From contig NZ_CP021382.1 in the NCBI RefSeq assembly GCF_002162135.1, positions 1,178,001 to 1,242,000 of the forward strand: DNA of 64,000 nt, read 5' to 3'. Made by a program: the position numbers and the translations under genes. The stretch comes from Cellvibrio sp. PSBB006 (GTDB lineage: Bacteria; Pseudomonadota; Gammaproteobacteria; Pseudomonadales; Cellvibrionaceae). Below are positions 32,616-62,986 of this stretch, piece after piece. The notes beneath the pieces were generated by a model, which was not told the DNA's origin, made no database searches, and saw only the letters and a list, made by a program, of their open reading frames with translations. Numbering within the stretch: the stretch's first letter is position 1; every line of letters starts with the position of its first letter.

Positions 32616-32721
32616 GTTTGTCATTAGGCCTTGTGTTTCGAAAACGCATGCATACATCCCTGTAGCTCCCTCAAGTCGTCCCTGACTTGAGGGTTTCGAA
32701 ACACAAGGCCTAACGCCAAAC
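32616..32721 (-). repeat. Covarying palindromic element, copy 1
   Basis: A 106-bp imperfect palindrome. Outer arms of 28 bases pair with two mismatches (variable block GGCCTTGTG and its complement), an inner hairpin pairs CCCTCAAGTC with GACTTGAGGG, and a conserved AGCTACAGGGATGTA segment lies between inner and outer stems. The core reads on the minus strand. It lies 55 bases after the beta-helix gene. Confidence 0.85.
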
Positions 32722-33091
32722 TCGTATGTGCCAACATGACCTGATTTACATTCAATCCCGCTAAAAATAGATTCTGCTACTCCGCAAAAATATGATGCCT
32801 GTCACAATGAAAATCTGACATGGCGCGTTCAGGTAAATCTTCTTAAAAAAACTTTCCCAATTAATACCTTTTCCACAAAACGACAGGAGTTTTGCGTGGG
32901 ATTTTTCCATGCTACGGACGGGAAAGTTCAGGCGCGTAGTTGTGTCGTTTCAAAGCACTTCTGAAAAACAGTTTGCGTTAACGTAAACATTTTCAACGCG
33001 TTCAGGGATTCCTGCACTTATTGATTATTGCGCTTTACGTCGTTGTGTCACGTTGGTTCAGCGACATGATTTTCAATAATCGATGCCTTTA
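32722..33091. other. Non-coding gap between the two CBM32 genes
   Basis: No ORF with a plausible start and ribosome site, no RNA gene and no convincing promoter motif is seen. The stretch is richer in A and T than its neighbours and presumably holds the GH18 gene promoter. Confidence 0.5.
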
Positions 33092-33116
33092 ATAACAACG
33101 GTCAAACCATTCGGAG
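33092..33116 (+). repeat. 25-bp leader shared with the beta-helix gene (copy 2)
   Basis: Identical to 29185-29209, ends in CGGAG six bases before the GH18 ATG at 33123. Serves as the ribosome site and shows that duplication included the start region. Confidence 0.85.
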
Positions 33117-33122
33117 CTTGTA

Positions 33123-35321
33123 ATGACATTGATAAAATATTTACGCCAGAATCTCTGGCGAGGCCAGGTACGATTGACGCCTTTTGCTTTTTTAGTCTGC
33201 TTAGCAGGCATGTTGTGTTCAGTTTCACTTTCTGCACAAACTGCGATTAAGTTGTCGGATGGCGCGGCGACCTTTGCCAGTTCACAGTTTCAGTCGGCGT
33301 CTTTTGCGGTGGATGGTGATTCGGCGACGCGTTGGGAGTCGACTCATGCGGTGGACCCGGCGTTTCTGACAATTGATTTAGGGCAGGCTTATAACCTGTC
33401 GCAGGTGGTGATTGATTGGGAGGCGGCTAACGCGGCGAACTACACGATCCAGGGCTCGAATAACAACAGCAGTTGGATCACCCTGGCGACGCGCACGGGA
33501 GGGAGTTTTGGGGATCGTACTGACACAGTGAATGTTTCAGGCAGTTACCGTTATGTGCGTATGAACGGCACGACGCGCAGTGTGGGTAATGATTGGGGTT
33601 ATTCGATCTGGGAGATGGCCGTTTACGGTTCGTCTAACAGTAACCTGCCCACGCCCTGGAACAATGGCGATGTGGGTTCGCCTTTGCCGGGTTCGGCCAG
33701 TTTTAGCAACGGTGTATTCAACACCACCGCGAACGGCAATGACATCTGGAATAACACGGATAATTTTCATTTTATTTATCAGCCCTTCAATGGCGACGGC
33801 GCGATCATCGCGCAAGTTACCTCGCTCAGCGCCACCCATGAATGGGCCAAGGCCGGTGTGATGTTGCGCGAGAATTTAACCGGCGGTTCTAAAAACGCGA
33901 TGATGGCGATGACCAGCAGCAACGGGGCTATCTTCCAGCGACGCACCGCCGCGAACGGTACCAGTGTCAGCAATTCCCAGGGCGGTGTGTTTACGCCTTA
34001 CTGGGTCAAACTCACTCGTAACGGCAATACACTGACCGGATTCAGCTCTTTCGATGGCAATACCTGGACGCAGGTCGGCACAACCACGGTCAGCATGAAC
34101 AGCAATGCCTATGTAGGGCTTGCGCACACCAGCCACGCCGCCGGTACGCTAGGTAATGCCCAATTTGATCAGGTTACGGTGCAGGCCGGTGCGGTGTGTT
34201 TCTATGAGAACACCAACTTCGGCGGCGCGAGTTTCTGCCGCGGTGCGGGAGCGCAAAATGTCCCGAGCGGTTGGGGCAATCGCGTGTCCTCGGTGCGTGT
34301 GATCAACGGCTACTCTGCGGTGCTGCGCTCACAAGCCAATCAAGGCGGTAGCAGCGTGACGCTTACCGGCGATACAGCAAATCTTGCCAACGTCGGTTTT
34401 GATAACCTGCTCGCGTCTTACACCATCAGCAATCAGGGAAGCACGGACAACATGAAGGTCGTGGGCTATATGCCCTCCTGGTCCGGCAGTGCGACAGCAA
34501 TCCAATACGACAAACTGACGCACATTAATTACTCCTTTGTGTTGCCCAATGCCAACGGCAGTTTGCAGGGCGTACCCAGTCCATCGAAGCTGCAAAGCAT
34601 TGTCACCCTAGGCCACGCCAATGGCGTAAAAGTGTTGATCGCCGTCGGTGGTTGGAATGATGGCAATGACAGTGCATTTGAATCCCTGGCCGCCAATGCG
34701 TCAACGCGCACCGCCTTTGTAAACAACCTGATCAACCTGGTTGAACAATACAACCTCGACGGCGTGGATATGGATTGGGAATACCCGGACCCGGGCGCCT
34801 CCGCCGATAATTACGCACTGCTGATGGGACAACTGAGCAACGCCCTGCATGCACGCGGGAAATTGCTCACCGCAGCGGTGGTGGCTTCCGGTTATACCGG
34901 CGGCGGTGTGAAGGCCGAAGTCTTTAACTACATCGACTTCCTTAACCTCATGGCTTACGACGGCGGCAACGGTTCAACCCACTCGCCCTATTCTTATGCC
35001 GTCAGCTCATTGAATTATTGGTTGAGCCGTGGTTTACCAAAGGAAAAAGCTGTGCTGGGCGTTCCTTATTACGCGCGTCCCAGCTGGGCGGCTTACAACA
35101 CGCTGGTTGGTTCCAATTCAGCCAATGCCTGCCGTGACAGCAATGGTTCGGATTATTGGAATGGCATTCCAACAATCCGCCAAAAAGCGCAGCTGGCTCG
35201 CTCACAGGCTGGCGGTATCATGACCTGGGAGTTGTCGCAGGATACCAATAGCGCCAATTCTTTGTTAACGGCCATGTATGAAGCGGTGAATGGTTTGGGT
35301 GGGTCGTATAACTGTAATTAA
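33123..35321 (+). CDS. Secreted GH18 chitinase with CBM32 and beta-gamma-crystallin modules
   Basis: 732 residues: signal peptide to about 39, CBM32 (about 40-173), one concanavalin-like module (about 178-357), a beta-gamma-crystallin-like module (about 358-440), and a GH18 barrel (about 444-732). The GH18 signature DGVDMDWEYP places the acid Glu at about residue 553; KVLIAVGGWN and MAYDGGNG also fit. It should cut chitin or related beta-1,4-GlcNAc polymers. The first 440 residues are close to those of the beta-helix protein, whose second concanavalin-like copy is the nearest match. Convergent with the next AraC-type gene. Confidence 0.92.
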   Translation: MTLIKYLRQNLWRGQVRLTPFAFLVCLAGMLCSVSLSAQTAIKLSDGAATFASSQFQSASFAVDGDSATRWESTHAVDPAFLTIDLGQAYNLSQVVIDWEAANAANYTIQGSNNNSSWITLATRTGGSFGDRTDTVNVSGSYRYVRMNGTTRSVGNDWGYSIWEMAVYGSSNSNLPTPWNNGDVGSPLPGSASFSNGVFNTTANGNDIWNNTDNFHFIYQPFNGDGAIIAQVTSLSATHEWAKAGVMLRENLTGGSKNAMMAMTSSNGAIFQRRTAANGTSVSNSQGGVFTPYWVKLTRNGNTLTGFSSFDGNTWTQVGTTTVSMNSNAYVGLAHTSHAAGTLGNAQFDQVTVQAGAVCFYENTNFGGASFCRGAGAQNVPSGWGNRVSSVRVINGYSAVLRSQANQGGSSVTLTGDTANLANVGFDNLLASYTISNQGSTDNMKVVGYMPSWSGSATAIQYDKLTHINYSFVLPNANGSLQGVPSPSKLQSIVTLGHANGVKVLIAVGGWNDGNDSAFESLAANASTRTAFVNNLINLVEQYNLDGVDMDWEYPDPGASADNYALLMGQLSNALHARGKLLTAAVVASGYTGGGVKAEVFNYIDFLNLMAYDGGNGSTHSPYSYAVSSLNYWLSRGLPKEKAVLGVPYYARPSWAAYNTLVGSNSANACRDSNGSDYWNGIPTIRQKAQLARSQAGGIMTWELSQDTNSANSLLTAMYEAVNGLGGSYNCN

Positions 35322-35343
35322 GTTGGATAGTGGTTCTAAATCC

Positions 35344-35451
35344 GTTTGTCGTTAGGGCGTTTGGTTTCGAAAACGCATGAATACATCCCTGTAGCTCCCT
35401 CAAGTCGTCCCTGACTTGAGGGTTTCGAAACCAAACGCCCTAACGCCAAAC
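35344..35451 (-). repeat. Covarying palindromic element, copy 2
   Basis: A 108-bp palindrome with the same inner hairpin and AGCTACAGGGATGTA core as copies 1 and 3, but its outer stem reads GGGCGTTTGG instead, with the complementary change on the other arm and only one mismatch over 29 bases. It lies between the convergent GH18 and AraC-type genes, 22 bases after the GH18 stop, and may terminate both. Confidence 0.88.
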
Positions 35452-35495
35452 TCGCATTGTGCGAATTTCAATATTGGGGGTTCCAAATAGAGAGG

Positions 35496-36659
35496 TTAAA
35501 TTTTTGGTGCAGCTTCCAGTTCATTGTGAATGATTCCGCCCTGGCGGCGATATTCTGTCGGTGTAACGCCTACCAGGCGCTTGAAAAAGCGGTGAAAGGT
35601 TGAGAGGCTGTTAAAGCCGGCGAGGTAGATAATATCCAGAATATTGTCCGTCTTATGTTCTTCCATCAACAACAACCGCTTCACCTCTTCAATACGATAG
35701 CTATTGATAAATTCAAAAAAATTCGTGCCGTAATGAGTTTTAATAATGGCCGATACATCGCGCACGCGTAGCCCCAGCCGTGCCGCAAAGCGGTCAATAT
35801 TTAAATTGGATTCAAGGTAAATGCGATCTACGTGAATGGCTTTTTCAATGGTGGCAATCTTGTGTTCCCGATTTTTGATACGCGACGGTTTCTCGGCCAC
35901 GATAGGTTCGGGGTGCAATAATTTTTCGGCGTTGAGCAAGCCGCTGATAAACAAGCCATTAATTAACATAATCACCAGATAATTATTGATAACGCCGAGC
36001 ACATTGCTCACGCTCCAGTGCACCCAGTCCGCCACAAAATAAGTACCCAGTGTCCAGACCCAATGCACCAGAAAACCAATCAGAATAATATCGCCCAGAC
36101 GCAACTCGACTTCGGAGATGGAGGAAAATCCACGGCGCAGGTGTTGATGGATGCGATAACGTAAACGCGCGCTGGCAATGACGTAAACGAAGGGAGAGAA
36201 TTTTACCAATGCCCATAAAAAAGAAACGGCGCGCTGTTTGCCTTCATCGGGGGTAGTAAGGCCGCGCCAGTCTGCTGTATTGATGCCGTAGAAAATGGCA
36301 ATAATACTGCCGCCTATCACGGGAAGAAGGTGCAAAAAATCCTTGCGGTTCCAGTGGTGTCCCTTGCTACGCAACGACTTGATATAAAAATAAAGTAACG
36401 GACCCTGCAACAATAAGCAGGCGACGTAGATCAATATCATCACTGGCGTTTTATTGACAGAGAGGTCTGCGAAAGCGTTATTCCAGACAATCATGGTCGA
36501 TGCCAATACCAGCGCAACGACAAGGAAAAAGCATCCGATGATCGTTCTGGATTGCCCGTGTTTGTCAGGCAATACGCGGACCAATACTGCCATACACAAG
36601 CATTCGACGATGGTCAGGGTCAGGATAAGATCGTGAAGACTGAAAAAACTTCCTTTCAT
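35496..36659 (-). CDS. Membrane-bound AraC family regulator (seven-helix sensor), paralogue 2
   Basis: 387 residues, same length and layout as the regulator at 27753-28916: seven hydrophobic segments, then an AraC domain (LNIDRFAARLGLRVRDVSAII, ILDIIYLAGFNSLSTFHRFFKR, GVTPTEYRRQ). Both open with MK-S-LHDL-type sequence. The ATG at 36659 is chosen by this likeness; a GTG five codons earlier is possible and no strong ribosome site is seen for either. It probably controls the adjacent GH18 gene or the paired CBM32 genes; this is inference from position. Confidence 0.82.
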   Translation of the reverse strand: MKGSFFSLHDLILTLTIVECLCMAVLVRVLPDKHGQSRTIIGCFFLVVALVLASTMIVWNNAFADLSVNKTPVMILIYVACLLLQGPLLYFYIKSLRSKGHHWNRKDFLHLLPVIGGSIIAIFYGINTADWRGLTTPDEGKQRAVSFLWALVKFSPFVYVIASARLRYRIHQHLRRGFSSISEVELRLGDIILIGFLVHWVWTLGTYFVADWVHWSVSNVLGVINNYLVIMLINGLFISGLLNAEKLLHPEPIVAEKPSRIKNREHKIATIEKAIHVDRIYLESNLNIDRFAARLGLRVRDVSAIIKTHYGTNFFEFINSYRIEEVKRLLLMEEHKTDNILDIIYLAGFNSLSTFHRFFKRLVGVTPTEYRRQGGIIHNELEAAPKI

Positions 36660-37132
36660 GACGGCATAGGGCACAGAAAAGTAAGAGGATTTTATAAATT
36701 GTTGTCGTGTTGCTGAGGCTTCAGCTGAATAAAATCTCAGCTTTGGTTACTGGCTCCCGGTGAGCCGTCGGCATACTATCATAGCAATTCCGACGCCGTG
36801 CCAGGCCGCTCCGGGATTTTGCCGGAAAATGTCGACCAGGTTTACTGTTTTACTTGAACCCTACCCACCTCAGCGGATGAACGTTGCGATATTGTGGATC
36901 AATGGTCATATCAGTAAAACTGCCGTCAATCACAAACCGGGCTGGTCTAATTTGACATCAACCCGCGCTGCCTTCAGGCTGGTAAACAACACGATGCCCG
37001 CGCGCAAGATTGGCGCAATTTTTGAAAGCAACTTATGTAGGGAGAAACATTGACGCTTTTTCACGTAGGAAAAAACGTTGACATTGGGCTGGCAAATTTT
37101 TTTATATTTATAACCCGGCAGGATTTTTAGGA
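36660..37132. other. Non-coding gap between AraC paralogue 2 and prkA
   Basis: No convincing gene. A sigma70-like pair (TTGACA at 37078 and TATATT at 37103, 19 apart) lies near the right end, ahead of the sigmaS-like element. The left part presumably carries the AraC gene promoter. Confidence 0.4.
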
Positions 37133-37142
37133 CTATGCTTAA
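37132..37142 (+). promoter_or_regulatory. Candidate sigmaS extended -10 for prkA operon
   Basis: CTATGCTTAA matches the sigmaS extended -10 pattern (CTAYRCTTAA) at every position. It lies about 100 bases before the prkA ATG. In E. coli the homologous yeaGH genes are sigmaS dependent, which supports the reading. No GG-N10-GC sigma54 site was found here. Confidence 0.6.
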
Positions 37143-37242
37143 ACCAGAGCTTTGAGTTGTTGTCTCAAGAGCTGCGATTGCCGTCCGCTGGAGGGATCTA
37201 CCCTGAGCAGTTGCGAACCCCATCGCTAACCAGAGGTATGTT

Positions 37243-39165
37243 ATGAGCCTTTTTAATCATTACCGCGAGCGCTATGACAGCACCCAGCAAGAAGAATTAT
37301 CGATCAAGGAATATCTCGAACTTTGTAAGACTGACCCCAGTGTTTATGCCAGTGCCGCCGAGCGTATGTTGATGGCCATTGGCGATCCCGAGGTGGTGGA
37401 TACCGCGCAGGACCCTCGCCTCAGCCGCATCTTTTCCAACAAAATTATCAAGCGATACAAGGCCTTCGGTGAATTTTACGGCATGGAGGAATGTATCCAG
37501 CAAATCGTCTCCTTCTTCCGTCACGCGGCGCAAGGTCTGGAAGAAAAGAAACAGATTCTCTACTTGCTCGGCCCGGTCGGCGGCGGTAAATCTTCCTTGG
37601 CGGAAATGCTCAAGACGCTGATGGAGAAGATGCCGATCTATTGCATCAAAGGCTCTCCGGTTTTTGAATCACCCCTGGGCTTGTTCAGCCCGGACGAGGA
37701 TGGCCACATCCTCGAAGAAGATTACGGTATTCCGCGCCGCTATATCAAAACCATCATGTCGCCTTGGGCAGCGAAGCGCTTGCAGGAGTTTCACGGCGAT
37801 ATTACCCAGTTCCGGGTCGTCAAACTCTACCCGTCTACCCTGAACCAGATCGCCATTACCAAGACCGAACCGGGTGATGAAAACAACCAGGATATTTCCT
37901 CGCTGGTGGGCAAAGTGGATATTCGCAAGCTGGAAGAATTTCCCCAGAACGACCCGGATGCCTACAGCTTCTCCGGCGGTTTGTGCCGCGCCAACCAGGG
38001 CTTGATGGAATTTGTGGAGATGTTCAAGGCGCCGATCAAGGTGCTCCACCCGTTGCTGACTGCCACGCAGGAAGGTAACTTCAACAGTACCGAAGGCTTG
38101 GGTGCCATCCCCTTTGACGGCGTTATTTTGGCGCACTCCAACGAATCTGAATGGCAAAATTTCCGTAACAACAAAAACAACGAAGCCTTCATTGACCGGG
38201 TTTATATCGTCAAGGTGCCTTATTGTCTTCGCGTTACCGAAGAGATGCAGATTTACGAAAAACTGCTCCAAAACAGTTCACTATCCAGAGCACCTTGTGC
38301 ACCGGACACCTTGCGCATGCTGGCGCAGTTCTCGGTGCTATCGCGACTGAAAGAGCCGGAAAACTCCAACATCTTCTCCAAGATGCGCGTCTATGACGGC
38401 GAGAACCTGAAAGACACCGACCCTAAAGCCAAGTCTTTGCAGGAATATAAAGATTCCGCTGGTGTGGATGAGGGCATGAACGGTTTATCTACCCGTTTCG
38501 CTTTCAAAATTTTATCGCGCGTCTTTAATTTCGATCCCACCGAAATTGCGGCCAATCCCGTGCATCTGATGTATGTGCTGGAACAGCAGATTGAACAGGA
38601 GCAATTTCCTAAAGAAGTACAGGAGAAATATCTCAACGTCCTCAAAGAGTATATTGCACCCAAATATGTGGACTTCATTGGTAAGGAAATCCAGACAGCC
38701 TATCTCGAATCCTATGCCGAGTATGGCCAGAATATCTTTGACCGTTATGTGACTTATGCCGACTTCTGGATTCAGGATCAGGAATACCGTGATCATGAAA
38801 CCGGCGAGATCCTTAACCGCGCCGCCTTGAACGAAGAGCTGGAGAAGATTGAAAAGCCGGCCGGTATCAGCAATCCCAAAGATTTCCGTAACGAAATTGT
38901 CAACTTTGTGTTACGGGCCAAAGCCAACAATGCCGGACGGAATCCGGATTGGCGCAGCTATGAAAAACTGCGCACGGTCATAGAGAAGAAAATGTTCTCC
39001 AACACGGAAGACTTGCTTCCGGTTATCTCTTTCAACGCCAAGGCATCCGCCCAAGACAAGAAAAAGCATCAGGACTTTGTACAGCGGATGATCGAGCGCG
39101 GCTATACCGAAAAGCAAGTGCGCTTGTTGTCCGAATGGTATTTGCGGGTCAGGAAATCACAATAG
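37243..39165 (+). CDS. prkA: PrkA family serine protein kinase (YeaG)
   Basis: 640 residues: N-terminal AAA-type part with Walker A GPVGGGKS at about 110-117 and the PrkA motifs SPLGLF and EFPQNDPDAYSFSGGLCRANQG, and a C-terminal kinase-related domain. YeaG acts in starvation and stationary-phase adaptation in E. coli. AGAGG lies seven bases before the ATG. It heads the conserved prkA-yeaH-spoVR set, with 109 bases to the next gene. Confidence 0.95.
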   Translation: MSLFNHYRERYDSTQQEELSIKEYLELCKTDPSVYASAAERMLMAIGDPEVVDTAQDPRLSRIFSNKIIKRYKAFGEFYGMEECIQQIVSFFRHAAQGLEEKKQILYLLGPVGGGKSSLAEMLKTLMEKMPIYCIKGSPVFESPLGLFSPDEDGHILEEDYGIPRRYIKTIMSPWAAKRLQEFHGDITQFRVVKLYPSTLNQIAITKTEPGDENNQDISSLVGKVDIRKLEEFPQNDPDAYSFSGGLCRANQGLMEFVEMFKAPIKVLHPLLTATQEGNFNSTEGLGAIPFDGVILAHSNESEWQNFRNNKNNEAFIDRVYIVKVPYCLRVTEEMQIYEKLLQNSSLSRAPCAPDTLRMLAQFSVLSRLKEPENSNIFSKMRVYDGENLKDTDPKAKSLQEYKDSAGVDEGMNGLSTRFAFKILSRVFNFDPTEIAANPVHLMYVLEQQIEQEQFPKEVQEKYLNVLKEYIAPKYVDFIGKEIQTAYLESYAEYGQNIFDRYVTYADFWIQDQEYRDHETGEILNRAALNEELEKIEKPAGISNPKDFRNEIVNFVLRAKANNAGRNPDWRSYEKLRTVIEKKMFSNTEDLLPVISFNAKASAQDKKKHQDFVQRMIERGYTEKQVRLLSEWYLRVRKSQ

Positions 39166-39274
39166 CGAGAAATCGCAACGGGAGGATACGACAGACATTT
39201 ACCCGCGTTATCGACACCTCGGCAGATGCACGCGCATCTGTCCGACCGTTTTGCGACAGGCTGACAGGTAAGCT

Positions 39275-40537
39275 ATGAGCTATATTATTGATCGTCGCTT
39301 GAACACCAAAAACAAAAGTGCCGTAAATCGCCAACGCTTTTTGCGGCGCTACCGCGCCCAGATTCACAAAGCCGTTTCCGACGCCGTGGGCGAACGATCC
39401 ATTACCGATATTGATCGCGGCGGCAAGATCAGCATCCCCACCAAAGACATTGGCGAGCCCGTTATCTATCACGGTAATGGTGGCCGCAACACGCGCGTGC
39501 TGCCCGGTAATAAACATTTTTCCGAAGGAGATCGCATTCCACGCCCCGAGGGCGGCGGCGGTGAAGGCGGCAGCAAAGCCAGTGATTCCGGCGAAGGTGA
39601 AGATGATTTCTCATTCACCATTTCCCAGGAAGAATTTTTGAATTTTATGTTCGACGGTTTGGAATTACCCAACCTGATTAAACGGCAGCTCACCGGCGTG
39701 GAAGAATTCAAAAAAGTCCGCGCGGGTATTGCCAACGAAGGTAGTCCCGGCAAGATCAATATCGTCCGTTCGTTGCGTTCCGCGAATATGCGCCGCATTG
39801 CATTGACCGGGAAAAAACGCAAACGACTGGAAGAACTGGAAGCCGCCCTGGAAGCCTTACATCCCGGTGAACGCAGCGGCCCCGGTTACGAAGCACTGCT
39901 GGACGAAATAGCAAAGCTGCGCAAAGCCATCGCGGCAACTCCCTGGCTCGACACCTTTGATTTGAAATACAACCTGCATATCAAACAACCGATTCCACGT
40001 TCGAAGGCGGTTATGTTCTGCATCATGGACGTGTCCGGCTCCATGGATCAAGCGACCAAAGATATCGCCAAGCGTTTTTTCATCTTGCTGTATTTATTTT
40101 TACAGCGGAATTATGAAAAAACCGAAGTGGTGTTTATTCGTCACCATACGATTGCCAAGGAAGTGGATGAAGATGAATTCTTCCACTCCCGCGAAACCGG
40201 CGGCACAGTAGTGTCCAGTTCGCTACGTCTGATGCACAGTATTATTGAAGCGCGTTATTCACCCTCGGAGTGGAATATCTACGGCGCCCAAGCCTCTGAT
40301 GGCGACAACTGGGAGGATGATTCGGCCAACTGTAAAGAATTGATGATCAACAGTGTATTGCCGAATTGCCAGTATTATTCCTATATCGAAATTACACCGC
40401 GCAATCATCAATCCTTGTGGCATACCTACGAAGAAGTAGAGGCTGCCTGCCCGGATCAATTTGCCATGCAACATATTGTCAGTGCCGCTGATATTTATCC
40501 GGTATTCCGTGAACTCTTCCATAAGAGGGTCGCATGA
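39275..40537 (+). CDS. yeaH: DUF444 family protein (YeaH/YhbH)
   Basis: 420 residues: basic N-terminus ([22 protein letters not shown]), a glycine/acidic stretch (about 88-112), and a C-terminal VWA-like domain with a MIDAS-type DVSGSMD motif (about residue 250). This is the DUF444 family always found beside PrkA. Role is not defined biochemically; partnership with the kinase is inferred from conserved linkage. Its stop overlaps the spoVR start. Confidence 0.94.
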
Positions 40538-42062: not shown

Positions 42063-42070
42063 GTTTGCAT

Positions 42071-53696: not shown

Positions 53697-54047
53697 CTAG
53701 CCGACCGAATTGAACTCCTGGATCAGTGTGGTGACGCGGGTGAACTCTACTTCAATCTCGGTAAGTTGTTGCGGCACAACATCAAGGTTGCCCGCCAGCG
53801 CCTGGGTTTCTATTTGGCTGCACAATTCCGCCAGGCGGGACGCGCCGATATTGCTGCTGCTGCCTTTAAAGCTGTGTGCTGCACGGCGGATGGTTTCCGC
53901 ATCACCTTGGGGAACCAATTCGTGCAGTTTGCGGATTCGTTCGCTGGAATCATTGATGAAGGTTTCCACCAGCAACATAAAATCGCCTTCCATGACATCC
54001 TTCAGGGTCATCAGAATCTCGCGGTCGAGATGCGGGGTTGTGCTCAT
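53697..54047 (-). CDS. hptB: Histidine phosphotransfer protein HptB
   Basis: 116 residues forming one Hpt four-helix bundle; phospho-acceptor His in AAHSFKGSSSNIGA (about residue 57). In Pseudomonas aeruginosa HptB passes phosphate from hybrid kinases to HsbR, which acts on HsbA and FlgM to switch between motility and biofilm. Here it follows the hsbA and hsbR homologues by 57 bases, which supports the name. The kinases are not in the window. Confidence 0.85.
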   Translation of the reverse strand: MSTTPHLDREILMTLKDVMEGDFMLLVETFINDSSERIRKLHELVPQGDAETIRRAAHSFKGSSSNIGASRLAELCSQIETQALAGNLDVVPQQLTEIEVEFTRVTTLIQEFNSVG

Positions 54048-54104
54048 GGACGTTCCTCAGCAAAACATAGGCTCAAAAAAACACAGGCAACCTGCCCTTC
54101 AATT

Positions 54105-55814
54105 TTAATCATCGTTAACCCAGGAAAACACTGCCTCAACCTGATTGCCTTTACCCAAGTAGCGCACAGAGTCGCACATCTTTTCCACCAACGCGAGACC
54201 TCTGCCGCTGTATTGGGTATTGGACAAACCCTCGGGCAAACAGTTGCTCATATCAAAACCTTCACCGCTGTCCTCGACCCGCAAGGTCAAGCGCCCGCCT
54301 TCCGGCGCGGTGGAATGCTGTAGATAAATTCGAATGTAACCTGCGGTCACACTGCGCAGTCGCTCTTCACGCAATTGATAATAATCCGCAAAACCTTCCG
54401 GTGTATCTTTCATGGCAGAATCCAGCTGCAGTACACCGTGCTCCAGTGCATTGGAATAAAGCTCCGCCATAATGGTGTATAACGTACCGCTGTAATTGCG
54501 CAGGCCGGGTACTTCCATCAGCACGTTTAGCAGCAGCGGCAAAGGGTCAAACGCTTGAAAGCTGGTGGGCTTGATCTCGAATGACATGTCCCACTCTGCA
54601 AGACTGGAATAGCGGCGAAAGATGGTTTCGCGTGCAACGCTGTCAACTTTATGCGGCTCTTCCATGATGATTTCCAACAGCGAAAGATCATCATTTTTTT
54701 CACCACCACCGATAAATTCCTGCACGCGTGCAAGAATTTCATCAAACGCTTTTTCGGGCGCGCGATTTTGGTCAAACACCGCTTGTAATCGCTCCTCACC
54801 AAACATCTCGCCTTCGGTGTTGCGCGCTTCATGAATCCCGTCGGACCACATAAAAAAGCGGTCGCCCACCGCCATTTCATAATGCTCGCAGTCGTCTTTA
54901 AAACTTTTATTGGGCAACACACCCAAGGGCAAATGCGTTGAGCGCACCGGCACAACACTCAAGTCGTCCTTGCGATAAATAAAACATTCCGGCAATCCAC
55001 CATTCCAGACTTTCATGCGCCGCTTTTCAAAATTCATATCGATCATGGTAGCGCAGCAAAAAAATCCGACCGGCAGGATGGATTTTAATTTTCCGTTGAT
55101 CTCGCGCAGGATATCGGTCATGGAAAAACCTTTATGGACCATGCCATAAAAGGTCGAAGCCAAAGGCATGGCGCCAATGGCGGCGGGCAAACCGTGGCCG
55201 GTAAAATCCCCGAGCAACACCATCATGCTGCCGGAGGGGCGCATGGCTGCCACCATCACATCACCGTTAAAGATCGCCAGTGAAGAGAGGTAGTAACGCA
55301 CGTTGCTGGCGCTGAGACAGCCACTGTGAGCTACGTTGTCAAACACCTGTTTGGCAACGGCCTGTTCTTGTAAAAATTGTTCGTTGTGACGCGCGATCTG
55401 ATCGCGCTGGGCGAGCATGGTTGCGTGCATTTCACGCATGCGGTTGAAGGATTTTATCTTGGCTTTGAGGATAACGCGGTTGTAGGGTTTGGAGAGAAAA
55501 TCATCGCCACCCGCATCCAGGCATTTCACCAGAGACTCGGTATCCGTGAGCGAGGTCAGGAAGATAATCGGCACCAGGGATTCCCCGGCTAATTCCTTGA
55601 TCTGGCGCGCCGCACCGAAGCCATCCAGACCGGGCATCAGGGCATCCAGCAAGACAATATCCGGCCGCTCCTGCGCGTAAGCGGCCACCGCTTCCAGCCC
55701 GTCTTTTGCGCTGATCACCCGGTGGCCTTCCTTGCGTACAATCGTCTCCAGAATCAACCGGTCTGTTTCGGTATCATCCGCCACAAGAATCGTTAAGCTG
55801 CGGCTTTCGCTCAT
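54105..55814 (-). CDS. hsbR: Response regulator / PP2C phosphatase / anti-sigma kinase HsbR
   Basis: 569 residues: receiver domain (about 8-125; phospho-acceptor Asp in IVLLDALMPGLDG), linker, PP2C/SpoIIE phosphatase (about 180-385; GDFTGHGLPAAIGAMP, FFMWSDGIHEARN, KNDDLSLLEI) and a C-terminal RsbW-like ATPase (about 425-565; AELYSNALEHGVLQ, EDSGEGFDMS, GRGLALVEKM). It can both dephosphorylate and phosphorylate HsbA, as its Pseudomonas relative does. The ATG at 55814 has GGAAG seven bases before it; a TTG six codons earlier is less likely. Confidence 0.9.
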   Translation of the reverse strand: MSESRSLTILVADDTETDRLILETIVRKEGHRVISAKDGLEAVAAYAQERPDIVLLDALMPGLDGFGAARQIKELAGESLVPIIFLTSLTDTESLVKCLDAGGDDFLSKPYNRVILKAKIKSFNRMREMHATMLAQRDQIARHNEQFLQEQAVAKQVFDNVAHSGCLSASNVRYYLSSLAIFNGDVMVAAMRPSGSMMVLLGDFTGHGLPAAIGAMPLASTFYGMVHKGFSMTDILREINGKLKSILPVGFFCCATMIDMNFEKRRMKVWNGGLPECFIYRKDDLSVVPVRSTHLPLGVLPNKSFKDDCEHYEMAVGDRFFMWSDGIHEARNTEGEMFGEERLQAVFDQNRAPEKAFDEILARVQEFIGGGEKNDDLSLLEIIMEEPHKVDSVARETIFRRYSSLAEWDMSFEIKPTSFQAFDPLPLLLNVLMEVPGLRNYSGTLYTIMAELYSNALEHGVLQLDSAMKDTPEGFADYYQLREERLRSVTAGYIRIYLQHSTAPEGGRLTLRVEDSGEGFDMSNCLPEGLSNTQYSGRGLALVEKMCDSVRYLGKGNQVEAVFSWVNDD

Positions 55815-55862
55815 AGACAGGCTTCCATTCAACGGGCCGGTAATTGCAGAAAAATTATTTCA

Positions 55863-56168
55863 TCAATGAATGGTAAATAATTGCTCAAAGTTGGAGATGG
55901 TAAGGATTTTTTTCACATCAGACGAACAATTGATAATTTCAATATTGGCTTTATCGCCGCCGGCAAAGTCACGCAGTAACAACAACATGCCCAAGGCTGA
56001 GCTGTCCAGATACGATGTGCCTTGTAAATCAACACGAAAATGTGTGGGAGTTTTGGGTAATTTTTCATATGCCGCACGAAACTCCTGGTGCGAGCTGAAA
56101 TCGAAGCGCCCCTGGATATAAATGGTGACTTGATTACCATCCGCTGACACTGTGGAAGTGATCGCCAT
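55863..56168 (-). CDS. hsbA: STAS-domain anti-sigma factor antagonist HsbA
   Basis: 101 residues, one STAS domain with the phosphorylatable serine motif YLDSSALGMLLLL. It is the substrate of the neighbouring HsbR. In Pseudomonas the unphosphorylated or phosphorylated form binds FlgM or a diguanylate cyclase and so sets motility. AGAGG lies before the ATG. A 284-base gap separates it from fliJ, with no recognised sigma54 site; a weak sigma70-like pair is possible near 56320-56345. Confidence 0.87.
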   Translation of the reverse strand: MAITSTVSADGNQVTIYIQGRFDFSSHQEFRAAYEKLPKTPTHFRVDLQGTSYLDSSALGMLLLLRDFAGGDKANIEIINCSSDVKKILTISNFEQLFTIH

Positions 56169-56452
56169 GTTCTACCTCTATCATCAGTACATCATTATTT
56201 CAAAAATCATTATCAGCGCGTCAACGCCCTTATATACTGCTAAAACCTGTAACGACTGGGACTGCACGATATGCGTGGACGACATCCCGACGCCGCACTA
56301 CACGATCCTAAGGATAGCCTATAAACGATGACTGTATAGTGCGCAAAGCAATAAAAAAGTTCGGCAGATTAATCATTTAAATATCAGGGTTTACCGGATA
56401 AACGCGCAAAAGGGAATGACACCGTATTACACGCCGTTATAACGAAATGAAA

Positions 56453-56896
56453 TCAGGGTTGACGTTGAAACTGTTGTGCGGATAAATCATCCAGTTCTTT
56501 TTGTAAGCGTTTTTCCAGCACATCATTTTCTTCGTAGCGCAGGCGAGCAATCAAATCCTGGATAGATTCCCGTCGCCGATGTTTATCCCGCCATTCCTGT
56601 TGCAGTTGATCAAGGGCTTGCATCATCCGCGCGATCTTGGCCTGTTGTTCTTTTTTTGCGTCACCCAAACGCTGGATAAAACTGCTGTAGCTGATCAAGT
56701 CTTGCGCATGCAGACCCGTTTTGAGTGAGCCGTAGGTGTCGAGATAATGTGCGGCGTATTCCTCCAACTGGCGCAATTGTTCCTGTTCCGCATTCACCTG
56801 TTCACGAAAATTCCCCAGGCGTTGCGCGGCAGCCTGCTCGTGACGCTCGGCCAGCATCAACACAATTTGCATACGCTGTGAACGAGGTTCAGCCAC
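56453..56896 (-). CDS. fliJ: Flagellar export chaperone FliJ
   Basis: 147 residues, nearly all coiled coil (RLGNFREQVNAEQEQLRQLEEY, LDQLQQEWRDKHRR), the FliJ length and form. It sits in the FliI ATPase ring and carries export chaperones. The start is GTG at 56896 with AAGGTGG six bases upstream. 30 bases after fliI. Confidence 0.9.
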   Translation of the reverse strand: MAEPRSQRMQIVLMLAERHEQAAAQRLGNFREQVNAEQEQLRQLEEYAAHYLDTYGSLKTGLHAQDLISYSSFIQRLGDAKKEQQAKIARMMQALDQLQQEWRDKHRRRESIQDLIARLRYEENDVLEKRLQKELDDLSAQQFQRQP

Positions 56897-56926
56897 GTTT
56901 AACCACCTTTTCGTTGATTCTGCGCA

Positions 56927-58318
56927 TTAGCCTTGAACGCGGTGCTGAGCAGCCAGGGGACTGGTCGGTTTACCGGGGGCGGTGGGTTTTAACAAGGCTT
57001 TGAGATTGGCGATACATTCCGCCATGTGCACCGGTTGTTTGAGTCCTTGTTGTATAAAGGCGCGCAGATGCGGGAAACGTTCAATAGCCAGATCCGTTTC
57101 CGGATCAGCACCGGGTGTGTAGGCACCGATGGCGATCAGGTCGCGGTTCTGTTGATAGCGCGACGACAATTGTTTGAAGCGCTGCATCATCTTCAGATGT
57201 TCTTCGCTCACAATATTTTGCATGGCACGACTGATGGATGATTCCACATCAATAGCGGGATAAGTGCCCTCCTCCGCCAGCTTGCGCGACAGGACGACGT
57301 GGCCGTCAAGAATGGCTCGCGCCGCATCAGCAATGGGATCTTGCAGATCATCGCCCTCGGTCAATACCGTATAAAACGCGGTGATAGAGCCCTCACCTTC
57401 GGCCGCGTTACCGGCGCGCTCCACCAATTGGGGAATTTTCGCAAACACGGATGGCGGATAACCTTTGGTGGCTGGTGGTTCGCCAATCGCCAGTGCAATT
57501 TCGCGCTGGGCCTGGGCAAACCGGGTCAGGGAATCCATCAACAACAATACATTTTTGCCCTGGTCGCGGTAGTACTCGGCAATACGGCTGGATAACTGCG
57601 AAGCGCGCAAACGCATCAAGGGCGCATCATCCGCCGGGGATGCCACCACCACCGCGCGACGCAGCCCTTCTGCGCCGAGGATATGATCAATAAATTCTTT
57701 CACTTCGCGACCGCGCTCACCCACAAGCCCCACCACGACAATGTCGGCGGTGGTGAACTTGGTCATCATGCCCATTAACACACTCTTGCCCACGCCGCTG
57801 CCGGCAAACAGACCCAGACGCTGGCCACGCCCGACGGTAATCAGCGCGTTGATAGCGCGCACACCGACATCCAGCGGCTCGCTGATAGGGTGGCGCTGCA
57901 GGGGGTTGATTTCGTGAGGAGTAAAGTCGAGGTATTCATCGCCCACCAGCGGGCCTTTGCCATCCAGTGGTTGGCCGATGCCATTCACGACGCGGCCGAG
58001 CAGTTGTGGGCCGATGCGCATACCCTGCTGGGTCGCGATAGGAATTACGCGTGCGCCCGGCTGCAAACCTTCAACTCGCTTGATCGGCATGAGGAACACT
58101 TTGTCGCCAGCAAAACCGACCACTTCGGCTTCGATACGCCGGTTATCCCCTGCAATCACTTCGCATTGCCGACCCACCGATACATTCAACCCGATGGCTT
58201 CCAGCGTCAGGCCGACGGACCGGGTAATACGGCCTTCTGCTTCCGGTTCAATAACCCTGGGTTTACCCGGCGCGTAACCGCGTATGCGTTCAACAATGGA
58301 TACGCGTTGATCAGCCAT
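56927..58318 (-). CDS. fliI: Flagellum-specific export ATPase FliI
   Basis: 463 residues with Walker A in [16 protein letters not shown], Walker B in [36 protein letters not shown] (split between strand and loop), the F1-like ATPase fold. It energises loading of export substrates. The ATG at 58318 overlaps the fliH stop by eight bases; ATG 58330 and GTG 58348 are in frame but lie inside fliH. Confidence 0.96.
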
Positions 58319-59171
58319 GAGTAAGATCATCGGCGTCGGTTGCGCCACGGTTCAGGCTGTTGCCGTCGGCATCATCTGCCAGAGAAATATCATCGTCGGC
58401 ATCGCCGTTGTTATCGGTGAGTTGTTTGTTAACAAATTGCGTGAGCACGGTTTGCAGGCGCTTTTCCACCGAAAAGTCCACCCGGCTTTCGCTGGTTTCG
58501 ACCCGGCAACCACCGGGAGCCAGTTGCTCATCGCCGACAAATTGCCAGTTGAGTTGCTGTTCTTCCGCGTAGGTTTCCACCGCCGCGAGGTCGTCGGGGT
58601 TCAGGCACACCCGCAGATTTTTACTGCCCACGGGCAAGGCATTAACGGCGGTTCTCACCAGCGTGACGATGTGACTGGAGTCAATAATCAACTCCCGTTG
58701 CACCACACTTTCGGTGAGCGTGCAGATCACATCGAGCAATAATTTTTCCAAATCGTTATCTTGTTCGGCGATAGGATCTAGCAGTGCTTGCACGAGTTTT
58801 TGGAAACGTTGTTGCTCCGTCACCAGTTGCTGGCGCATCTCCATCAAGCCTTTTTGCTGACCGGCTTCGTAACCTTCGGCCATGCCTTTATCAAAACCTT
58901 CCTGGTGGCCTTGGGCAAAACCATCTTTCTCAGCGGCCTCGATGATCTCCTGCATTTCCTGCGCCGTCATACCTTTTTTAGGCGTGGCGCTGGGCATATC
59001 CACATCTTCGATAGACTCGCCCTGACGCTTCATCGCCTGCGCCTTGCGTTCGCGGGCTTCTTTTTCCGCCGACGGCATTACCGTGCCATTGTCATTGATC
59101 AGCGGGACGCGCCAGGCTCGATATTCGCCCACGTCTTCCGCAGCAATGCGGTTAGGCAATTTCTTTTCCAT
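58311..59171 (-). CDS. fliH: Flagellar assembly protein FliH
   Basis: 286 residues (289 if ATG 59180 is used): charged N-terminus, a Gly/Gln/Glu repeat-rich helix ([24 protein letters not shown]), coiled coil and a C-terminal domain with [18 protein letters not shown]. FliH restrains FliI and docks it to the C-ring. AAGGT lies nine bases before the ATG at 59171 but touches the one at 59180, so 59171 is preferred. Confidence 0.92.
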
Positions 59172-59205
59172 ACTGGTCATACCTTACCCGTTAGGCCTAT
59201 CCGCG

Positions 59206-60246
59206 TTAAACCATCTGCTCGCCACTGCCACCCAGGACAATTTCACCGGAGTCAGCCATGCGTCGTGCAATCGTGAGAATCTCTTTCTGCGCCGATTCCA
59301 CTTCGGTGAGACGCACCGGCGGCTTGGCTTCCAGATCGTCGCGCAGCAATTCGGCGGCGCGTTTGGACATATTCTTGAAGATTTTTTCCTGGAGATCGGT
59401 GTCGGCACCCTTCAATGCAATGATGAGCACATCGGAAGACACTTCGCGCAACAGCGCCTGGATACCGCGATCGTCCACATCTTTGAGATTGTCAAATACA
59501 AACATCAGATCCTGGATCTGGTTGCCCATGTCCTCGTCAATTTCGCGGATGGAATCCATCAGGTCGGCCTCGATAGAACCGTCAAGGTTGTTCATAATTT
59601 CCGCCGCCACCTTGTAACCGCCCATGGCTTTGGTTTGTGAGCTGGCATTGCCGGAGAATTGTTTCTCCAGGATATCGTTAAGTTCCTGCAAGGCGCTGGG
59701 TTGTACCGTATCGAGGGACGCGACGCGCATCATGATGTCGATGCGCACTTTTTCCGGCAGGAAACTGAGGATTTCGGCGGATTGGTCGGCATCGAGGTAA
59801 GCGATAACGATGGCCTGAATCTGCGGGTGTTCGTTGCGTATAATGTCGGCTACCGAGCGAGCGTCCATCCACTTGAGTGTATCGAGCCCGGTGGTGTTGC
59901 CGCCGAGCAAAATGCGATCGATCAAACCGTTGGCTTTGTCTTCGCCCAAGGCCGTTACCAGCATGTTGCGGATATAACTGTCGGCGCCCACACCGAGACC
60001 GGTGAGCGTGCGCACCTCATCGAGAAATTCCGACATCACGCCCTGCACATCCTGCTGTTGCACGTTGGACAGTTGCGTCATGGCCGCGCCGATGCGTTGC
60101 ACTTCTTTCGGCCCCAGATGCTTGAGTACTTCAGCCGCGTCCGCTTCGCCTAATGACATCAATAGAATCGCGGCCTGATCCACCGAACGCAGTTTGGGTT
60201 TGGCTTTCTCGGGTAGTTTATTGTCCGATGCAGGCGGTGTACTCAT
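59206..60246 (-). CDS. fliG: Flagellar motor switch protein FliG
   Basis: 346 residues in three domains: N-terminal FliF-binding (AAILLMSLGEADAAEVLKHLG), middle with an EHPQ motif (IIRNEHPQIQAIVIAYL), and C-terminal torque domain (VFDNLKDVDDRGIQALLREVSSD). FliG meets the MotC/MotD stator. Six bases after fliF. Confidence 0.97.
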   Translation of the reverse strand: MSTPPASDNKLPEKAKPKLRSVDQAAILLMSLGEADAAEVLKHLGPKEVQRIGAAMTQLSNVQQQDVQGVMSEFLDEVRTLTGLGVGADSYIRNMLVTALGEDKANGLIDRILLGGNTTGLDTLKWMDARSVADIIRNEHPQIQAIVIAYLDADQSAEILSFLPEKVRIDIMMRVASLDTVQPSALQELNDILEKQFSGNASSQTKAMGGYKVAAEIMNNLDGSIEADLMDSIREIDEDMGNQIQDLMFVFDNLKDVDDRGIQALLREVSSDVLIIALKGADTDLQEKIFKNMSKRAAELLRDDLEAKPPVRLTEVESAQKEILTIARRMADSGEIVLGGSGEQMV

Positions 60247-60252
60247 CGCTCA

Positions 60253-61974
60253 TTACTCGTCTTTGTTAATCCACTTCTTAACCACTTGGGCAACACGCCC
60301 CGGATCATCGGCAATCAGGCCTTTGATCGCGTTGAGTTGTTGCTCGTAACCCTGCTCCGGGCCGGGCAACATTAGCGCACTGCCGCCGGTGAGCGTTACC
60401 GTTTCATCGGACATGCCGTCGTAACCCAAACCGGCAGCTTCCAGAGCGGCCAATTGGCGCGCCTCTTCCTGCTCGGTAAGTTGCTGACCGGAGCGCGTCA
60501 GGCTTCTGAAGACCGGTAGCAGCAGGCCGAAGATCAACAACAGCACAATCAGCACACCGCTCAGGTATTTGATGTTGGGCAGAATCCAGGTTTCCCACCA
60601 GGGCACTTCTTCAGCCGTGGTGTCAAATAAGAGGCTGTCGTCCGCGCCCATAAAGGGAGAGTTCAAGACATTGACGCTGTCCCCACGCACCGCCGAAAAA
60701 CCGACGGCGTCACGTACCAGTATAGACAGGCGTTCGAGTTCGTTCTCGGTCCAGGGCACGCGGGTGTCATTGCCTTCGGCATCTTTGACAATTTTATCGT
60801 CCACCACCACGGCTACCGTCAGGCGCTTGAGCGTGCCCTGCTGGTGGCGCGTGTAGCTGATGGTACGATCCAGTTCGTAGTTGCGGGTGGCCTGTTCGCG
60901 GCTGTTGCGTGGCGGCTCGGGCTGAATCGGCTCGCCAGTGACCGGGTCCAGTTGCTCAGGCACCTGGGTAGTCGTGCCGGGCGGTTGGTTCGTCAGAGCG
61001 CCAGGGATACCACCGGCAATGTCGCCACCCACGCGTTCTTCATTCAGGGTTTGTTCGCTGCGCACGGCCGGCAGATCCGGGTTAAAGGTCTCAGCGGCCT
61101 GCTCAATCGCGGTAAAATCGATATCAGCACTGACTTCCGCGCGGAAGTTACCGTTGCCGACGACCGGCAACAGAATACTGTTGACGCGCTTGATCAGGCT
61201 CTCTTCAACGGCTTGTGTGTAGGTGTGTTGCTTGCCGGCCAACAGGAGTTCATCGTTCTCATCCCCGGTGGAGAGCAGGCTGCCGTGCTGATCCACCACG
61301 GTCACATCTTCTTTGTTGAGTTCCGGAATGCTGGATGCAACCAGGTTGGTAATCGCCCTGACTTGGGCTGGCTCTACTGTGCGACCGGCAAAGACTTCCA
61401 CAAATACCGAGGCGGTTGGTTTACGGACATCGCGCACGAACACCGAACGTTTAGGAATAGCAAGATGCACCCGCGCCTTGCGGATGCTGGTAATACTGGT
61501 GATGGTGCGGGCGAGTTCACCCTCAAGGCCACGATGGTAGCGGGTGTTCTCCATAAACTGGCTGGTGCCCAGGGGCTGCTCCTGATCCAGCAACTCAAAG
61601 CCGGTGTTGTCTTTGCCGGGAATGCCCAGCTCCGCCAACCGCAAACGGGCCATATGCACATCATCAGCGGCCACCAATACGGCGCCGGTGTTGATATCCA
61701 GTTTGTATTTGATCTGGTTCTGGTCCAGTACCTGAACCACGTTGGCCGCATCGAGATTATTCAGGCTGCCGTACAGCGGACGATAATCTTCCCCCTGACT
61801 CCACAGCACCACCGCAAAACCGATGGCCACGCTGGCCGCCAGGCCCACCATTAAGCCCGCCTGACGCAGCAAACTCAGGCTGCTGAAACCCTCGGCAAAG
61901 TCACCGCCCAAGCGCGGCTTCTCACTGCGCGCCGGTACATTATTCGCGTCTGCGTTATCGGTTGTAGAGGCCAT
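60253..61974 (-). CDS. fliF: Flagellar MS-ring protein FliF
   Basis: 573 residues: two membrane helices (about 37-58 and 450-470) around a large periplasmic ring-building region (YRPLYGSLNNLDAANVVQVLD, GFELLDQEQPLGTSQFMENTRY, LARTITSI). The C-terminal tail binds FliG. The motif RKARVHLAIPKRSVFVRD is typical. It follows fliE by 62 bases and is the base of assembly. Confidence 0.97.
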   Translation of the reverse strand: MASTTDNADANNVPARSEKPRLGGDFAEGFSSLSLLRQAGLMVGLAASVAIGFAVVLWSQGEDYRPLYGSLNNLDAANVVQVLDQNQIKYKLDINTGAVLVAADDVHMARLRLAELGIPGKDNTGFELLDQEQPLGTSQFMENTRYHRGLEGELARTITSITSIRKARVHLAIPKRSVFVRDVRKPTASVFVEVFAGRTVEPAQVRAITNLVASSIPELNKEDVTVVDQHGSLLSTGDENDELLLAGKQHTYTQAVEESLIKRVNSILLPVVGNGNFRAEVSADIDFTAIEQAAETFNPDLPAVRSEQTLNEERVGGDIAGGIPGALTNQPPGTTTQVPEQLDPVTGEPIQPEPPRNSREQATRNYELDRTISYTRHQQGTLKRLTVAVVVDDKIVKDAEGNDTRVPWTENELERLSILVRDAVGFSAVRGDSVNVLNSPFMGADDSLLFDTTAEEVPWWETWILPNIKYLSGVLIVLLLIFGLLLPVFRSLTRSGQQLTEQEEARQLAALEAAGLGYDGMSDETVTLTGGSALMLPGPEQGYEQQLNAIKGLIADDPGRVAQVVKKWINKDE

Positions 61975-62036
61975 AATGCGTTAATCCTGAAGTAGCGTTG
62001 GAATCAGATTGGAAACAGCGAATCGTGTGATTATTG

Positions 62037-62414
62037 TTAAATAGGCATGTTCATGATGTCGCGGTAGGCATCCACCAACTTATTGCGCACCTGCACCATC
62101 GCCTGGAAAGAAACGGACGCTTTCTGCGAGGCAATCATCACGTCGGTGATATCCACCCCTTCCACACCGCGCTCATAGGCCGTTGCCATGGCGCCGGAGG
62201 CTTTCTGCACATTGTTAACCTTGTTGACGGCCTGGGACATCACCTCGCCAAAGCTGGGAATCTTGTTGCCGCCATCGACGGTCAGCGGACCGGTATTGTT
62301 AACTTCACCCACATCACGCGGGGCAAGACCTGCCGGGCGCTGGAACGCCTGGGTTTGCGATTTCATCGCACGCATTTCCACCAGTAGACGGTTGATATCC
62401 ACACGATCAGTCAT
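62037..62414 (-). CDS. fliE: Flagellar hook-basal body protein FliE
   Basis: 125 residues with the FliE C-terminal pattern [39 protein letters not shown] (in parts: [27 protein letters not shown]). FliE joins the MS ring to the rod. It is the first gene of the fliEFGHIJ unit. The fleS/fleR genes that precede it in Pseudomonas are not here. Confidence 0.95.
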
Positions 62415-62490
62415 GGCGAGATTCTCTTTTGGTCGTTAACACAATGGGCAGCGACAAGAAATTGGCGTTACCGGATTCTGGGTGGGATAT

Positions 62491-62507
62491 TGCACAAAGC
62501 AGGCCAA
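62491..62507 (-). promoter_or_regulatory. Candidate sigma54 promoter for fliE
   Basis: On the minus strand TTGGCCTG-CTTT-GTGCA has GG-N10-GC spacing with three mismatches to the -24/-12 consensus. Start of transcription near 62480, about 66 bases before fliE. Confidence 0.5.
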
Positions 62508-62637
62508 TCTTTGCCGCCCGGCAATGCCTTGCCGCTGCGGGGCTTTCATTGCTCTGGCACCGCGCTGATTTCTTTCACAGGTTTGTCATTAAAGCGCTTT
62601 AGGATTCCAGGCATCACAGCTTTCATAGGACTCCACC

Positions 62638-62838
62638 ATGGAACAAAACCTGATTGCCAACGATAGCTTTTTGATTGAAAACGCCCTGACTGAATTTATC
62701 CACAGCGCTGCTGCTGCCAATAAAAAGGCGCAGAAAATTCGCCAGAATATGGAGTACCGTCGCAAGTTGGAGTTGCGGATGGAGGAGATGCGGTTGCGGC
62801 GGGAGACTTGTGAGTTTGAGTTTGAAGTGAAGAAGTAG
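62638..62838 (+). CDS. Small helical, charged protein of unknown function
   Basis: 66 residues, acidic/hydrophobic first half (NDSFLIENALTEFIHSAAA) and a strongly charged helical second half (RRKLELRMEEMRLRRET). TAGGA lies eight bases before the ATG, which supports a real gene. It resembles short charged helical proteins of the PA3496 type in pattern, but this is weak. Divergent from fliE; it might be read from the same gap. Confidence 0.5.
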   Translation: MEQNLIANDSFLIENALTEFIHSAAAANKKAQKIRQNMEYRRKLELRMEEMRLRRETCEFEFEVKK

Positions 62839-62880
62839 AAAAAGAGCAAACGCCGGAAAAGTGATACCTGCACTATACGA

Positions 62881-62986
62881 GTTTGGCGTTAGGCCCTTTG
62901 TTTCGAAACCCTCAAGTCAGGGACGACTTGAGGGAGCTACAGGGATGTATTCATGCGTTTTCGAAACAAAGGGCCTAATGACAAAC
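62881..62986 (+). repeat. Covarying palindromic element, copy 3
   Basis: 106-bp palindrome with the core on the plus strand: outer arms of 28 bases (variable block GGCCCTTTG and complement, two mismatches), inner CCCTCAAGTC / GACTTGAGGG hairpin, AGCTACAGGGATGTA segment. It lies between the small ORF and the convergent PepSY gene. Confidence 0.87.

Follow-up and report, generated by a model that had tools for sequence, protein, structure and literature searches.

Palindromic repeats in the window and across genomes

The window analyzed here is a stretch of 64,000 nucleotides (64 kb) of the genome of Cellvibrio sp. PSBB006 (contig NZ_CP021382.1, positions 1,178,001 to 1,242,000), and it contains members of a family of palindromic repeats. 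Three of these repeats, 106–108 bp each, were reported in a preliminary description of the sequence, and all three are present: copy 1 at 32616..32721, copy 2 at 35344..35451, and copy 3 at 62881..62986, with arms that are 93–97% complementary. Each copy has two outer arms of 28–29 bases that enclose a 26-nt hairpin (hairpin 1), a short hairpin (TACAGGGATGTA; hairpin 2), and a linker. On one strand, hereafter the GGA strand, both inner hairpins end in CANGGANG, and the variation within these 8-mers consists of the two N positions. The GGA strand is the minus strand in copies 1 and 2 and the plus strand in copy 3. In copy 1 (covariance-model score 90.3 bits), the outer arm 32616..32643 pairs with 32694..32721 (93% complementary), hairpin 1 lies at 32668..32693 with the apex CAGGGACG, and hairpin 2 lies at 32653..32664. 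Copy 2 (92.1 bits) has the arms 35344..35372 and 35423..35451 (97% complementary), hairpin 1 at 35397..35422, and hairpin 2 at 35382..35393. Copy 3 (92.1 bits) has the arms 62881..62908 and 62959..62986 (93% complementary), hairpin 1 at 62909..62934, and hairpin 2 at 62938..62949. Copies 2 and 3 carry the same hairpin 1 apex and hairpin 2 sequence on their GGA strands, and hairpin 1 was placed from both sequence and fold in all three copies.

The cores of these copies had been called identical. They are indeed shared, but near-identical only, being one base apart (GTATGCATGCG in copy 1 and GTATTCATGCG in copies 2 and 3). A 32-position core pattern with up to three mismatches allowed matches the window three times, each time without mismatch, and has no match in 100 shuffles. 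The blocks of 9–10 bases in the outer arms vary among copies and are matched by their complement in the opposite arm, as first described. The count of three was incomplete, as a fourth, diverged copy had been overlooked at 24347..24414 on the plus strand (30.5 bits, E = 1.4e-7). This copy sits in a convergent gap and keeps hairpin 2 (CTACAAGGACGTAG), whereas its hairpin 1 is rebuilt and the GGA is gone from the loop. RNA folding z-scores for copies 1–3 range from -10.1 to -11.7 on both strands, such that by energy alone the GGA strand and the opposite strand both fold well; in copy 1, hairpin 2 forms part of the minimum free energy structure predicted for the GGA strand.

Copies 1–3 each adjoin the 3' end of at least one gene, in agreement with the placement originally proposed. 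Genome-wide this tendency is strong but not absolute. The genes at 29216–32560 and 33123–35321 are neighbors with duplicated N-terminal modules (F5/8 type C, DUF1349, and Inhibitor_I36), the second also has a GH18 domain, and a palindrome follows each of them. No Rfam family matches within the window at gathering scores, and no match to the element was found in the plasmid collection searched.

A search of the whole genome and of related genomes for the core, as the preliminary description had suggested, revealed a large dispersed family. Exact matches to CTACAGGGATGTAT number 48 in the PSBB006 genome, compared to none for the reversed control. From 46 core sequences of the PSBB006 genome (alignment A2), a covariance model (R1) was constructed, and it gives at least 131 hits with E no greater than 1 across the 5,257,074-base (5.26 Mb) genome; this is a lower bound, given that only 150 of 2105 candidates were scored. 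R1 also matches 33 of the 56 genomes of relatives (34 of 57 with PSBB006 included) and, with 23 candidates scored per genome, 39 of 229 genomes across the class, again with PSBB006 included. The core is found in many named Gammaproteobacteria. The element is real and widespread.

Two classes of the repeat occur in one genome. In class 1, to which the window copies belong, the outer stem carries TTTCGAAA at its base and, more distally, GTTTGGCGTTAGG/CCTAATGACAAAC. Class 2 is marked by GAGAC/GTCTC, and its arms, mostly 24–28 bp long, form several sub-families by eye; an earlier view that class 2 arms are unrelated among copies was dropped because, by eye, these sub-families share arm motifs. The class 2 pattern matches at least 119 stretches in named genomes, some of which are not the element, and the 80 listed include Rheinheimera, Stenotrophomonas, Marinobacter, Methylotuvimicrobium, Shewanella, Yersinia, and Pantoea. 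Certain class 2 copies carry extra CATGGAYG hairpins within hairpin 1. Class 2 copies also form inverted pairs with starts 131–348 bp apart (e.g., 341926/342274, 2080232/2080575, and 3059611/3059792 of the PSBB006 genome), and in these three pairs one partner holds an insert with further CATGGAYG hairpins. Moreover, chimeric repeats (e.g., 4624590–4624648, 2303968–2304030, and 4419412–4419470 of the same genome) fuse a left half of the class 1 type with a different right half that has CGCCACATCCNTGTGGCTCMCCCT, the other strand of which again shows a GGA hairpin.

CsrA-type loops and the probable folded strand

At the conserved center of the element is the pair of loops. In the 46-copy alignment, the hairpin 1 apex reads C-A-N-G-G-A-N-G, in which the C, the A, the first G, the second A, and the last G are invariant and the second G is nearly so, whereas both N positions are free to vary. 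Hairpin 2 (T-A-C-A-N-G-G-A-N-G-T-A-T) is similar in these copies, although its constancy is partly built in, as the 46 copies were selected with a pattern for hairpin 2 that tolerated two mismatches at most. In both hairpins the hexaloop is ANGGAN closed by a C-G pair. The CsrA/RsmA consensus is given as 5'CANGGANG3' (CANGGANG) and RUACARGGAUGU in the available text of PMC6849547. Among the 131 copies of the PSBB006 genome, the core region contains two such 8-mers in 114, one in 16, and three in one. In other genera, the strongest upstream hairpin fits CANGGANG strictly in 52 of 79 cases. The hairpin 1 stem covaries, with 47 double-change cells compared to 10.5 in shuffles and a covariation score of 0.267 compared to 0.058 (none of 500 shuffles as high), and hairpin 2 has the matched variants CCCATGGATGGG and TCCAGGGACGGA in certain copies of the same genome. 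Two csrA matches were found in the PSBB006 genome, one of them approximately 520 bp from a copy of the element. A second, short csrA-like gene, separate from the usual csrA, lies at 4202171–4202329.

The outer stem is well paired and highly variable. For 58 class 1 copies, the 20 innermost outer pairs (those of TTTCGAAA and the next 12) are each 95–100% Watson-Crick, and the block adjoining TTTCGAAA shows all four bases at most positions. Among 66 class 1 copies, 54 different 7-nt blocks were found. Mismatches in the outer stem are asymmetric between strands. This was assessed in 157 distinct outer stems from PSBB006, relatives, and other genera, which remained from 229 extracted copies after removal of nine that were not parsed, 57 with a stem score below 10, and six duplicates. 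Class 1 stems in this set were trimmed to 20 pairs, by which a conserved G-T was lost. On the GGA strand, the non-Watson-Crick pairs comprise 111 G-T, 16 A-C, and 70 others; per copy, G-T exceeds A-C in 61 and A-C exceeds G-T in five. Based on this excess of G-T over A-C, the GGA strand is most likely the folded one, either as RNA or as single-stranded DNA.

The gene ends that face the 131 copies, as determined with a crude open reading frame (ORF) caller, are 3'/3' in 53 cases, one 3' and one 5' in 69, and 5'/5' in nine, such that 175 of the 262 facing ends are 3' ends. In tandem gaps, the GGA strand is antisense in 49 copies and sense in 20. These orientation counts rule out the possibility that every copy is read in the sense direction within a 3' untranslated region. 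Stems are equally well kept in antisense and sense copies. In other genera, for which a similar caller was used, 18 of 64 copies lie inside an ORF, 16 are antisense, 11 sense, 13 between two 3' ends, and five between two 5' ends; one is undecided. The scan of the copy 1 region gave three promoter-like matches, compared to 1.3 in shuffles.

Opposite orientations and concerted arms at orthologous loci

Among six genomes of the same genus, 18 groups of loci have both flanks in common; the grouping omitted loci shorter than 2500 bases (L116). The core was unreadable in L426 and L428, and in 10 of the 17 groups with at least two readable cores it is found in both orientations relative to the same genes. 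Within the sets of copies compared between the two genomes, a reciprocal best match was found for 14 of the 27 flipped pairs and not for the other 13. At least one reciprocal-best flipped pair occurs in eight of the 10 groups, and none in the groups L115/L385/L433 and L398/L400/L430. For the flipped pair L445/L446, both genomes are listed with one contig each, which makes an assembly join an unlikely cause of the flip. In G007, one locus appears twice near contig ends (L389 and L395), which is probably an assembly overlap.

The two arms of a copy change together. Pairs with a stem score below 9 were left out of the comparison, and 25 of 42 pairs have a core similarity of at least 0.85. In these 25 pairs, 139 arm positions are changed on both sides and still paired, although 27 of the 139 come from two L400 pairs that are probably out of register; the one-sided changes comprise 29 G-T, two A-C, and 16 others. 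Because pairs from one group have genomes in common and thus lack independence, one pair per group was used for the swap counts. In the 10 groups, these pairs have 42 double swaps (23 transitions and 19 transversions) and 23 one-sided changes (13 G-T, two A-C, and eight others). At L399/L407, from two genomes, the flanks are 96.6% identical, the element is inverted, and both sides have changed in 14 of the 20 arm pairs. Replacement by another copy was suspected at first, yet the two copies are each other's best match, so either replacement or strong arm turnover may have occurred.

Stepwise compensation in an RNA stem through G-U intermediates should favor transitions. The G-U route is described in the available part of PMC8794818, which also states that template switching can both create and repair RNA stems. 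In yeast, template switching between the arms of inverted repeats homogenizes the arms and inverts the spacer (PMC8604942, in the text available). Such a process would give both the inversion and the concerted arms, so covariation alone is no proof of selection for pairing. The preliminary description had concluded from the compensating changes that pairing is kept. That such changes demonstrate this by themselves is not supported in the form proposed, given that the arms change in concert, the double swaps comprising 19 transversions and 23 transitions, and the core is found inverted, both of which template switching predicts. The excess of G-T over A-C nevertheless points to a constraint on one folded strand. 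A combination of template switching and selection on the folded GGA strand fits the arm-change counts best. Repeated insertion at the same target remains a rival to inversion in place.

Kinship, mobility, and possible role

The repeat had been left without a named family, but its core is common to YPAL/RU-2, and the element is of a known kind. RU-2, as printed in Table 1b of PMC2759123 (text available in part), has hairpin 1 with CAAGGATG followed by GAGCCTACATGGATGTATTTACGGCGTC; by eye, it holds the same hairpin 1 plus GAGCCTACANGGANGTATTYACGGCGT core as the class 2 search pattern. R1 has a match in Yersinia similis (37.1 bits, E = 7.1e-10 in 124,807 bases). According to the available text of PMC2229807, YPAL is intergenic and present in many copies, its targets span or adjoin dyad symmetries, and its target site duplications are 3–26 bp; here, the 131 or more copies are mostly at gene 3' ends. 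The Cellvibrio element differs from YPAL/RU-2 in being shorter, in having other arms, and in having two classes in one genome with at least 131 copies. No link of YPAL to CsrA, and no YPAL inversion or concerted arms, was found in the accessible parts of the open-access literature searched.

Other families are similar in part. TwoAYGGAY (RF01731), a candidate CsrA-binding RNA according to Gardner and Eldai (PMC4333381, in the part available), likewise has two adjacent A-N-GGA-N apex hairpins inside a poorly conserved outer stem, and it matches the GGA strand weakly (best of 10 loci 33.2 bits, E = 0.082). The element here differs from it in being a high-copy genomic repeat. The Yersinia small RNA Ysr224 (RF02770) can be aligned along its entire length with two copies, in both cases with the opposite strand (35.0 and 33.7 bits, E = 0.0001 and 0.00024), but these scores are below its gathering score of 70 and the annotated Ysr224 strand is the opposite one. 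CsrA-sequestering RNAs of the CsrB/RsmZ type have many CsrA sites on one RNA (PMC4333381, available text), whereas the present element is dispersed, has mostly two sites per copy, and has no own promoter that could be seen. Because of the GTTAGG/CCTAAC ends, an integron attC site was also considered; this candidate was not retained, as attC has its boxes in the reverse order.

We favor the explanation that the copies are mobile YPAL-like palindromic repeats, that the GGA strand is a CsrA-binding RNA element, and that the arms are kept matched mainly by template switching. Judged from sequence comparison, this explanation is about equally likely to be right or wrong. Under it, the GGA strand would be a structured RNA in which an outer stem holds two CsrA/RsmA-type hexaloop hairpins. 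It would be transcribed mostly within 3' untranslated or intercistronic parts of mRNAs, and CsrA would bind both loops. The 130 or more copies together may then act as a dispersed reservoir of CsrA-binding sites, as CsrA-bound 3' hairpins, or as both. Template-switch copying would homogenize the arms and sometimes invert the core in place, and selection on the folded GGA strand would trim the remaining arm variation.

Several observations count against this explanation. Single-stranded DNA instead of RNA could yield the same wobble asymmetry. Among isolated copies in tandem gaps, the GGA strand is antisense in 39 and sense in 10 (p = 3.8e-5), and because antisense copies keep their stems equally well, transcription from the neighboring gene cannot now maintain the stems. 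Promoter-like matches on the minus strand at copy 1 are two, weak, and about 300–380 bp upstream, and the stretches scanned for copies 2 and 3 gave no promoter into the GGA strand. In copies 2 and 3, the minimum free energy structure of the GGA strand lacks hairpin 2, which is present in that of the opposite strand. Two of five covariation measures for hairpin 1 are not above shuffles (double-change pairs, 4 compared to 4.1; further pair types, 11 compared to 9.7). The 27 of 79 hairpins in other genera that miss CANGGANG include some with GGA in a shorter or altered loop as well as pattern matches without the element. The TwoAYGGAY match is below the gathering score of 43 bits, and microRNA and other unrelated hairpin families score alike. 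Finally, the transversion swaps may partly be small indels read as substitutions (e.g., L416/L423).

Alternatively, the repeat may be a selfish palindrome moved as folded single-stranded DNA by some enzyme, in which case the GGA hairpins would be recognition structures of that enzyme, the likeness to CsrA sites would be coincidental, and opposite orientations at one locus would reflect repeated insertions into the same target. We consider this unlikely, although the possibility is a real one. Mobility itself, already suggested in the preliminary description, is supported by the dispersed family and by one insertion seen against empty sites: one G014 copy is absent in G010, G012, and G013, in which the flanks (82–92% identical) close directly after an intrinsic terminator hairpin. 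At the G014 junctions there is no clear target duplication, and the same site in G001 and G008 has other sequence. The selfish alternative is also consistent with the wobble asymmetry that persists in copies antisense to genes, with the widespread but patchy distribution (39 of 229 genomes), and with the orientation at a locus not being kept, given that 13 of the 27 flipped pairs are not reciprocal best matches. However, it does not account for the free and fixed loop positions that follow the CsrA RNA consensus in both hairpins. Moreover, species in which the flanks are only about 70–80% identical still share copies at a locus, a long persistence for a selfish element that has no function. 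No enzyme for the movement was found in a search that covered the Y1 family only, and the sole Y1 transposase gene detected is accompanied by a different palindrome of its own.

A more doubtful alternative is that the repeat serves as a 3'-end mRNA stabilizer or transcription boundary, as proposed for YPAL, in either orientation and through the long stem alone. This would agree with the prevalence of 3' ends among the facing gene ends (175 of 262), with the very stable folds of both strands, and with the occurrence of both orientations. In the gap between valS and a tRNA-Ser gene, PSBB006 has a copy of the element where, by eye, 12 of the 18 relatives printed have an intrinsic terminator of valS; in the remaining six, the printed stretch did not show the end of valS. 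Insertion beside a dyad symmetry or terminator is thus seen at two loci only. Neither the CANGGANG apices nor the one-strand excess of G-T over A-C is predicted by a stabilizer or boundary role. The terminator role raised in the preliminary description was rejected for the window copies because no T tract directly follows the hairpin at either end of copies 1–3, as read directly from the bases; terminator scans, which model simple hairpins only, likewise gave no terminator-like site at the element in these copies.

A REP element of a REP-associated tyrosine transposase (RAYT), a check for which had been proposed, is very improbable: the repeats resemble REP/BIME as short intergenic palindromes with GTAG on one strand (in copies 1–3, the opposite strand reads GTAG and then hairpin 1) and the PSBB006 genome has one Y1_Tnp match (23.5 bits, E = 1.9e-4), but the nearest listed copies of the element are 8–12 kb from this gene, with no linkage to it, and the constrained strand is the other, GGA strand. 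The Y1 transposase gene itself (2609388–2609651) lies, by eye, between palindromes of its own GTAGGTCGGGTTAGCG type and appears to be a separate REP-like system.

If the GGA strand is a CsrA-binding RNA element as we favor, the repeats might also be invertible, with copies flipping the binding strand into or out of the neighboring transcript while template switching keeps the arms matched whatever their mutation rate, which would provide about 130 slowly switching CsrA decoys dispersed among the genes. From the sequences compared, we regard this extension as tentative and rather improbable. Two features look new, namely the CsrA-type twin loops as the conserved heart of the element and the occurrence of both orientations at a single locus, accompanied by concerted arms. 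The element ties repeats known under separate names (YPAL/RU-2 and perhaps Ysr224 and TwoAYGGAY) to one gammaproteobacterial kind with a candidate role in CsrA binding. It also appears to be a natural example of stem covariation that would arise largely from a DNA copying process, although such covariation is commonly regarded as proving a functional RNA. The strand-specific wobble excess would reveal the share that is due to selection, and orthologous copies let both contributions be measured.

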